Origin: Bdellovibrionales bacterium
Lineage (GTDB): Bacteria > Bdellovibrionota > UBA1018 > CAIMNF01
Reading direction: 5' to 3'
Assembly: GCA_947502835.1 (NCBI GenBank)
Contig: CANNBJ010000003.1
Location: 186,001 to 250,000, forward strand
Length of the DNA: 64,000 nucleotides
Position 1 is the stretch's first letter; each line of letters begins with the position of its first letter. The translations under genes and the position numbers were made by a program. The notes beneath the pieces are model-generated. The model was not told the origin of the DNA and did no database searches. It worked only from the letters and a program-made list of their open reading frames with translations. Shown here one piece after another: positions 33,625-47,590 of the stretch.

Positions 33625-33642
33625 TCGGCGTGTTTAGAGGGC

Positions 33643-33748
33643 GTGGCCCATAAGGCTAACTTGTTTAAACACCTTGGATTCTTGAGGATTTTGCTTCCGG
33701 GCCGCATCCTGAGGCTTTGCGCTCGGTCAAGGTCCAGAGTTCTTGTAG
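33643..33748. repeat. Degenerate copy of the structured repeat family (copy D)
   Basis: Contains an inverted, decayed version of the repeat core (TTCCGGGCCGCATCCTGAGG, 33694-33713), flanked by weakly complementary arms (around 33671-33687 and 33726-33745). A terminal-repeat-like end lies near 33643-33669 (TTTAAAC junction). It abuts copy A. Confidence 0.45.
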
Positions 33749-33952
33749 GACGTAGCCTTTTTGAGTGAGCATGGGGCTAGAGGCTGAGGAGATAATTCCC
33801 TGAATTCTTGGGAGTTTGGCCGACTCTTGCGAGGCAGGACTGCCGAAAGCAAGGCCGCAGGATGCGGCTTGGAGGTCAAACTCCCAAGAATTCAGGGAAA
33901 TTGCCGCCTGAGGTTTTCATCCCATGCTCATTCAAAGACGCCACTTTACAAA
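33749..33952 (+). repeat. Structured inverted-repeat element, copy A
   Basis: Outer inverted repeats are CTTTTTGAGTGAGCATGGG (33757-33775) and CCCATGCTCATTCAAAG (33921-33937). Inside, a 26-bp palindrome (33796-33821 with 33874-33899) pairs at 25 of 26 positions. The core (33822-33873) includes the hairpin GCCGCAGGATGCGGC. Same architecture as copies B and C near 47.3 kb but with different inner-arm sequence. With copy D it fills the gap between 33625 and the rpmI promoter. Confidence 0.75.
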
Positions 33953-33960
33953 TTTCAGCC

Positions 33961-33989
33961 TTGAACATTCGCTCGACTTCAAGTAGGCT
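33961..33989 (+). promoter_or_regulatory. Candidate rpmI promoter TTGAAC-N17-TAGGCT
   Basis: TTGAAC (33961-33966), a 17-base spacer and TAGGCT (33984-33989) end 10 bases before the rpmI ATG. The predicted leader is about 4 bases, and no Shine-Dalgarno is visible in front of rpmI. Confidence 0.4.
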
Positions 33990-33999
33990 CTACGACTCT

Positions 34000-34197
34000 A
34001 TGAAATTGAAAACAAAAAAAGCAGCTGCCAAGCGTTTCAGCTTCTCTGCGACTGGAAAAGTAAAATTCGGACACGCAGGTCGTCGCCACTTGCTCAGCAA
34101 GAAGTCCAACGTGAAAATGCTTGGAATCCGTGCAGATGGATACATGACTGACGGAGATGCCCGCCACGTTCGCAAGTGCATGCCGTACGGCGAGTGA
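34000..34197 (+). CDS. rpmI: 50S ribosomal protein L35
   Basis: 65 residues, the normal L35 length: MKLKTKKAAAKRF at the N-terminus, GHAGRRHLLSKKS in the middle, and MPYGE at the end. The frame is open upstream, but that sequence belongs to the structured repeat. It starts a run with rplT 66 bases downstream. Confidence 0.95.
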   Translation: MKLKTKKAAAKRFSFSATGKVKFGHAGRRHLLSKKSNVKMLGIRADGYMTDGDARHVRKCMPYGE

Positions 34198-47181: not shown

Positions 47182-47380
47182 TAAACTGGCATCTTTGAGT
47201 GGGCACGGACTTCGAGAGCCGGAAGGAATCCCCTTTGATTTATGGGGGTTTAGCCTCCGAGCCGCGTCCTGCGGCCTCGCTTTCGTGAATCCGCACTCGC
47301 GAGAGTCGGCTCCCCCCCATCAATCCAAGGGGATCAATTCCGGTGCTCTGAATGCATGCCCACTCAAAGATGCCAGTTTA
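47182..47380 (-). repeat. Structured inverted-repeat element, copy B
   Basis: Terminal inverted repeats are identical over 24 bases (47182-47205 and 47357-47380). Inner arms at 47219-47255 and 47308-47343 are imperfectly complementary. The core (47256-47307) is the reverse complement of that in copies A and C, with GCCGCAGGACGCGGC as its hairpin. It lies between the large secreted gene and copy C. Confidence 0.8.
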
Positions 47381-47388
47381 TAAATCAC

Positions 47389-47590
47389 TTAAACCGGCCC
47401 CTTTGATTGGGCACGGACTTAAGCGGATTAGCCAGGAGCTATTTGGAATGATTGAGTTTTGGTCGACTCTCGCGAGACAGGATTGGCGCAAGCGAGGCCG
47501 CAGGATGCGGCTCGGAGACCAAAATTCAATCATTCCAAACAGCTTCTCGTGAGTCCATTGATGTTCGTGCCCACTCAAGGGGACCAGTTT
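47389..47590 (+). repeat. Structured inverted-repeat element, copy C
   Basis: Terminal repeats at 47391-47415 and 47566-47590 pair at 21 of 25 positions, and differ from copy B in both arms in a compensating way. The inner palindrome (47442-47464 with 47517-47539) matches at 22 of 23 positions. The core at 47465-47516 contains CTCTCGCGAGACAGG and GCCGCAGGATGCGGC. It starts 8 bases after copy B, in opposite orientation, and ends 13 bases before the prfC stop. Confidence 0.8.

Follow-up and report, generated by a model that had tools for sequence, protein, structure and literature searches.

Upstream of rpmI, in the 64,000 nucleotides of Bdellovibrionales DNA analysed here (the window), lies a 197-bp element – copy A – that is an almost complete hairpin. 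Taken as a whole, our data are best explained, and we think probably so, if copy A is a non-autonomous palindrome mobilised by an insertion sequence, closed by a conserved T-shaped cap, with arms that are re-paired by template switching. The kind of element is familiar, MITEs and palindromic repeats being already known; what stands out is the conserved cap, older and wider than the insertion sequence, absent from Rfam and set upon stems of free sequence.

Copy A, its neighbours and their setting

The features of copy A and its relatives in the window are as follows (genomes are denoted G000, this one, and G003 to G039).

33750-33946, + (cap strand): copy A, 197-bp hairpin element, delimited by TIR matches, with core spacing as in intact copies, and by its folding z
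33750-33771, +: left terminal inverted repeat of A, diverged (5 mismatches)
33796-33821, +: 5' arm of stem P1 of A, copy-specific (inverted-repeat pairing)
33810-33890, +: match to covariance model R1 – inner P1, P2 hairpin, P3 hairpin and closing GGAG (103 bits)
33854-33868, +: P3 hairpin of A, GCCGCA-GGA-TGCGGC, exact core GCCGCAGGATGCGGC
33874-33899, +: 3' arm of stem P1 of A, copy-specific (inverted-repeat pairing)
33925-33946, -: right terminal inverted repeat of A (3 mismatches; G000:C3:219925-219946)
33701-33715, -: core remnant of decayed copy D (1 mismatch to GCCGCAGGATGCGGC)
33625-33949: block D+A, missing from the orthologous locus of G011 and of the outgroup G003
47184-47378, -: copy B, 195 bp, both TIRs (TIR matches)
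47392-47589, +: copy C, 198 bp, both TIRs (TIR matches)

The order of parts described for A in the initial annotation – an outer inverted repeat, a 26-bp palindrome and the core – is borne out by coordinates and pairing alike: the outer repeat GAGTGAGCATGGG occupies 33763-33775, with a minus-strand partner at 33921-33933 (1 mismatch), and the 26-nt arms are complementary at 25 of 26 positions (96%). That this palindrome is unrelated to the arms of B and C is evident both by eye and in alignment. The folding of A (z of -10.12 as RNA and -9.75 as DNA) was equalled by none of 200 shuffles; z is -11.06 for C, whose core is exact (47497-47511, +), and -12.80 for B, whose core carries one mismatch (47261-47275, -). 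D, recognised from the outset as a degenerate, reversed fourth copy just ahead of A, retains a minus-strand core with one mismatch and alone folds no better than shuffles (z -0.63).

The ORF listed over A (33808-34197) represents an upstream extension of the rpmI frame; A itself is without coding capacity. As to the proposal that A lies directly before the rpmI promoter, rpmI starts at 34000; a simple sigma-70 scan found no promoter, though a TTGAAC-17-TAGGCT sequence is retained in relatives aligned at this locus. The two loci do indeed occupy the largest gene-free gaps (462 and 375 bp), apparent gaps with long ORFs being set aside. As to the suggested tendency toward opposed pairs, eleven pairs of neighbouring copies lie no more than 450 bp apart; nine are opposed, all with the 5' sides of their cores facing, none is opposed the other way and two run in the same direction. 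Two of the nine opposed loci recur in two species. The tendency is thus real for near neighbours, but the majority of copies are solitary.

Beyond the window, contexts and mismatches were counted over 107 copies (including 22 of about 30 from G039 and 7 of 23 from G011), with 16 more G011 copies added for ortholog, TIR-length, target-site-duplication and double-change counts. The expectation that copies are intergenic holds apart from three of the 107, which were scored inside a called frame. Gaps between convergent genes hold 36, tandem gaps 29 and 21, and divergent gaps 13, with one side unknown for 8. For the 27 lone copies from other genomes the corresponding numbers are 10 convergent, 8 and 7 tandem, 0 divergent and 2 unknown; none of the 25 with both neighbours called lies in a divergent gap. 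Orientation relative to genes is unbiased (7 versus 8 among lone tandem copies), a sense-orientation bias among the first 12 lone copies having disappeared once 27 copies were considered and genes were called by length. Several copies lie just 3' of tRNA genes, and positions are shared at tRNA-Ser in G000 and G009 and at tRNA-Pro in G006 and G009.

Terminal repeats, a resident IS1-like element and probable mobility

Allowing up to 3 mismatches, the genome has 57 sites that match the terminal repeats of the element (AACTGG..CTTTGARTGGGCA), against none for a reversed control. Four pairs of repeats, 1025-1026 bp apart, are copies of an IS1-like insertion sequence: each of the three copies that were read contains an ORF of about 300 aa, and the fourth holds a match to that ORF. 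The NCBIfam IS1 model matches the ORF at E 2.7e-6 with 27.4 bits, below its cut-off of 100, and no Pfam family does so at a meaningful E-value. Residues D131, D210 and E243 and a CxxC at 46-49 are invariant in the nine sequences compared. Among 58 relatives, transposases that are 75-81% identical are confined to G000, G008 and G011, the genus members with many element copies.

Both TIRs (no more than 3 mismatches each) are present on 17 of the 45 core copies here, 2 of 19 in G008 and 2 of 23 in G011, and 14 of these 21 copies are exactly 198 bp long; the other 28 copies in this genome lack two recognisable TIRs. Since the ends of the element are the same as those of the 1025-bp IS1-like element, the hairpin elements of this genome look, on sequence grounds, like its MITE-type passengers: copy A would be a non-autonomous mobile palindrome moved in trans by the IS1-like transposase of the same genome. 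The initial annotation raised the possibility that the region is the remnant of an ordinary IS whose transposase lies elsewhere; this survives only for the ends, which match the IS. Between these ends the sequence is not that of the IS: no core match, of the 45, falls at any of the four IS positions, and the cap, which the IS lacks, occurs elsewhere without these ends. Three further TIR pairs (L283, L284 and L285, at G000 C1:134719, C2:494066 and C6:166178) are separated by 89, 68 and 159 bp without enclosing an intact cap, and are shorter derivatives of the same terminal repeats.

Comparison of strains, which had been proposed as a check, revealed differences in presence at both loci. The block comprising A and D is missing from G011 and G003, while locus A in G008 holds a different pair together with an apparent remnant of A's 5' arm; because G008 and G011 seem mutually closer in the flanks of this locus, loss in G011 and repeated insertion are both possible. 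Copy C is missing in G008, where B is present, and G011 is without elements at C7:93395 and C7:96808. Five copies have common inner arms in different flanks. Element-free loci, along with near-identical elements in unrelated flanks, support mobility. The flanks adjoining elements look random and no target-site duplication is evident: a 9-bp repeat is nearby in 3 of 28 elements, two of them representing one locus.

Identity between same-orientation pairs averages out at 83.7% for the core, 66.3% for the arms and 82.0% for the flanks over all script-counted pairs, mispairings and truncated cores included. In a set of 17 pairs judged one-to-one orthologous, which leaves out locus A, nine keep at least 49 of 52-53 core positions in flanks of 73-90% identity and the other eight keep 39-47 of 52. 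Some copies thus look constrained at fixed sites and others look to be decaying.

The cap and its distribution

The 15-base core GCCGCAGGATGCGGC occurs exactly 15 times in the 2.73-Mb genome, and caps a three-way junction of a long stem, P1, and two short hairpins with GGA loops. P1 is topped by tandem G.A pairs (CGAC / GGAG); the P2 hairpin carries an internal G.A loop, and the P3 hairpin completes the layout. A first covariance model (R1), built from 13 copies of the hairpin element, gave 45 matches here at E values of 1 or below and matched 12 of 58 relatives' genomes, this one counted in. A second, built from 70 matches, found the cap in at least 19 of 368 genomes of the phylum, a lower bound given that at most 12 candidates were scored per genome. 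Across these matches the unpaired bases – the GGA loops and GA pairs – are invariant, the usual cap loop being CAGGAUG, and in genomes of other families the same cap is present without the AACTGG..CTTTGARTGGGCA ends. Pairing extends beyond the model in all 14 weak phylum matches, in outer arms that the model does not use; the control reached as much in 0 of 300 trials for 12 of them and in 1 and 2 of 300 for the other two. Because phylum relatives without these ends keep both the cap and long, unrelated paired arms, the cap family extends beyond the IS1-like element, and the cap is, as judged from such comparisons, older and wider than its use by that element.

A pattern representing one cap sub-type (other sub-types may occur elsewhere) was scanned against 84,980 species' genomes and returned 34 stretches, 33 of them from Bdellovibrionota-type MAGs whose record titles read Bdellovibrionales, Oligoflexia, Bacteriovorax stolpii and, in one case, only Proteobacteria. 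The remaining stretch, from Paractinoplanes, does not belong to the family: it scores 12.8 bits and its arms are for the most part unpaired. No Rfam family reaches its gathering score in the window or at 18 loci; the matches at a permissive threshold all fall far below cut-off and were discarded as chance. Searches by blastn for phage, plasmid or viral homes gave no match, and pattern scans of IMG/VR returned 0, 0 and 3 contigs, two of the three matching part of the P2 arm and one nothing. No publication on this hairpin family was found in the open-access literature, as judged from titles and the openings of abstracts. The initial description of a structured repeat family therefore holds as regards the fixed core, the copy-specific palindromes and their place outside Rfam, but has to be amended in that opposed pairing is exceptional and the ends are shared with an IS.

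Several variant copies deserve mention. L011 and L013 (G000:C4:344603 and C6:171222) have a second core sub-type (CGACTTTTTGAGCGAGCC...) just upstream and start a few bases 3' of its closing GGAG, as though both had entered an older hairpin at one and the same point; a remnant of this sub-type is present at L006 as well. At G000:C1:170399-170535 and C1:163006-163109 the P2 hairpin contains an insert with further stem-AGGA-stem hairpins (CCCGGGCAGGAGCCCGGG). In most of the G039 copies (L103-L122) a second internal loop, AAAGACGTCCTCGCC / GGCTGCGGAATGTCTTT, is conserved some 40 nt out from the cap; the two G026 copies (L099, L100) have in common a further hairpin motif, AGGACGCCCAC...GTGGGCGCCC, that lies some 60 nt upstream of the cap.

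Hairpins bound by CsrA/RsmA present GGA in their loops, several per molecule, with A-N-GGA in the loop as the CsrA target motif. The cap resembles these in its several GGA loops and differs in that it mostly lacks an A two positions ahead of GGA: the usual loop, CAGGAUG, does not have the A-N-GGA motif. The csrA gene is itself uninformative as a pointer to a cap partner, being present in 56 of 58 relatives irrespective of the element. On its cap strand A does not show the GC stem with a U tract behind it that marks a Rho-independent terminator; one G003 copy ends in a T run.

Weak matches to Y1 transposases of 180-260 aa, similar in size to RAYTs, occur in many Bdellovibrionota genomes, up to 21 per genome. 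REP, BIME and REPIN sequences with their TnpA-REP are like the present element in being intergenic palindromes at gene 3' ends with opposed neighbours; they measure 20-40 bp against about 198 bp here. No Y1 transposase flanks the copies, the matches listed for G000, G039, G010 and G004 lying away from them; this and the 198-bp length led us to reject a REP/RAYT identity. Closer in form are the Correia/NEMIS, ERIC and CIR MITEs, which are 100-200 bp long, intergenic, bounded by terminal repeats, folded into a long hairpin and mobilised by a resident IS (PMC2229807, PMC10969869). Unlike these, the present element has a stem private to most copies and a three-way-junction cap kept across the phylum and across differing ends.

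Paired arms and the competing explanations

The 107 copies fall into 83 arm clusters. Pairing of the arms, extended by an x-drop rule, reaches some 60 bp in this genus and as much as roughly 150 bp in G039, where further conserved islands sit at fixed places within the stem. Over 70 matches, in an alignment fitted to the model, 94.7% of cells are paired (65.7% when shuffled), 24 of 27 pairs have changed on both sides, and the covariation score is 0.685 against 0.168 for shuffled and at most 0.147 for slid alignments; a 13-row MAFFT alignment gives 0.343 against 0.126. Apart from its terminal repeats, A forms one long hairpin closed by the T-shaped cap (P1, tandem G.A and two GGA-loop hairpins), in which the sequence of P1 is free and its pairing alone kept.

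Close comparisons bear on how pairing is kept. Seventeen independent close pairs display 21 double Watson-Crick changes, 11 of them lying within 2 bp of another; about half cannot have passed via G.U, as 11 of the 21 are transversion pairs. Single changes outnumber doubles (99 versus 41), showing that arms do decay between corrections. Moreover, the centre of the element is flipped at five places:

G000 C7:96808, centre flipped versus outer arms or flanks
G000 C1:484421, centre flipped versus outer arms or flanks
G039 C229/C230, centre flip
G000 C4:288175 versus G008 C15:22489, centre flip
G008 C74 versus G011 C172, centre flip

A further candidate, G000:C5:32354 / G008:C32:1480, was dropped on finding that the locus holds different elements. 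Template switching between inverted repeats is described as leaving arm homogenisation and spacer inversion as its signature (PMC8604942; see also PMC8794818), and so predicts both the compensated pairs and the flips. Those accounts share with ours arm homogenisation, multi-base compensated changes and spacer inversion, and concern RNA genes and yeast coding DNA; here it is a mobile family (PMC8794818, PMC8604942). We therefore favour a cycle in which arms would drift and then be re-complemented, mainly by polymerase template switching between them, which would also flip the centre. Weaker selection may act on the folded cap strand. Counting one copy per arm cluster, cap-strand mismatches are G.T in 68 cases and A.C in 28, an excess indicating that this strand, when single, folds as well; it is concentrated near the cap (38 versus 11), weak (30 versus 17) beyond the first 12 pairs and not seen in G039 (15 versus 12).

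The chief competitor, itself doubtful, is a functional structured RNA of the host that sits at 3' ends, is occasionally captured by transposons and has arms paired by selection alone. The G.T excess on one strand speaks for it, as do the 0 of 25 lone copies in divergent gaps, the common positions at tRNA-Ser (G000, G009) and tRNA-Pro (G006, G009), and the nine of 17 orthologous pairs with at least 49 of 52-53 core positions kept. Yet the other eight keep only 39-47 of 52, orientation is unbiased (tandem contexts 7 versus 8), G.U intermediates cannot account for about half of the double changes, most phylum genomes have no match (at least 19 of 368 matched, under strict filters), and presence at 3' ends may reflect tolerance alone. 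We consider it rather unlikely that the element is an ordinary MITE, a deletion derivative of the IS1-like element with the cap as the neutral centre of a palindrome: common TIRs, a near-constant length of 198 bp and the short TIR-only elements of 68, 89 and 159 bp would fit, but the IS copies have no cap, other families carry the cap between different ends, its invariant unpaired bases recur across the phylum, and in G039 the IS ends are unlike the element ends.

Parvovirus telomeres are T-shaped hairpins that replicate through a hairpin intermediate. By analogy, a T-shaped single-stranded DNA that replicates or moves through such an intermediate could account for the T shape with two triloop hairpins, the flipped centres and complementary arms of arbitrary sequence. 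We regard this as very improbable: template switching accounts for flips and arm homogenisation without it (PMC8604942), and no hairpin endonuclease gene was found near copies, the listed Y1 matches (G000, G039, G010, G004) not flanking them.

On the reading we favour, of an IS-mobilised palindrome with template-switched arms, the same cap with other ends is present across Bdellovibrionota, as one copy or several, and sits at the 3' ends of genes. Its function would most likely, if tentatively, be that of a hairpin read through where transcripts end, on their 3' side, or of a site for a cap-bound protein, which hosts may tolerate or use.

A bolder proposition, to which we give a clear minority of our credence, is that the T-shaped cap and the perfect, sequence-free stem beneath it may make up a structured nucleic-acid element of a new class that is native to Bdellovibrionota, with arms that would be kept complementary through template switching; the cap would be retained for its function – protein binding, either in single-stranded DNA or where transcripts have their 3' ends – and unrelated transposons would borrow it. 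Were this so, covariation would be made by mutation as much as by selection. The family offers about a hundred natural hairpins with a common cap, mostly private stems and orthologous copies in three species, a set that makes testable what share of stem covariation – usually taken as proof of RNA function – is due to template switching, and it brings to light an unannotated repeat family in a predatory phylum that has been little studied.
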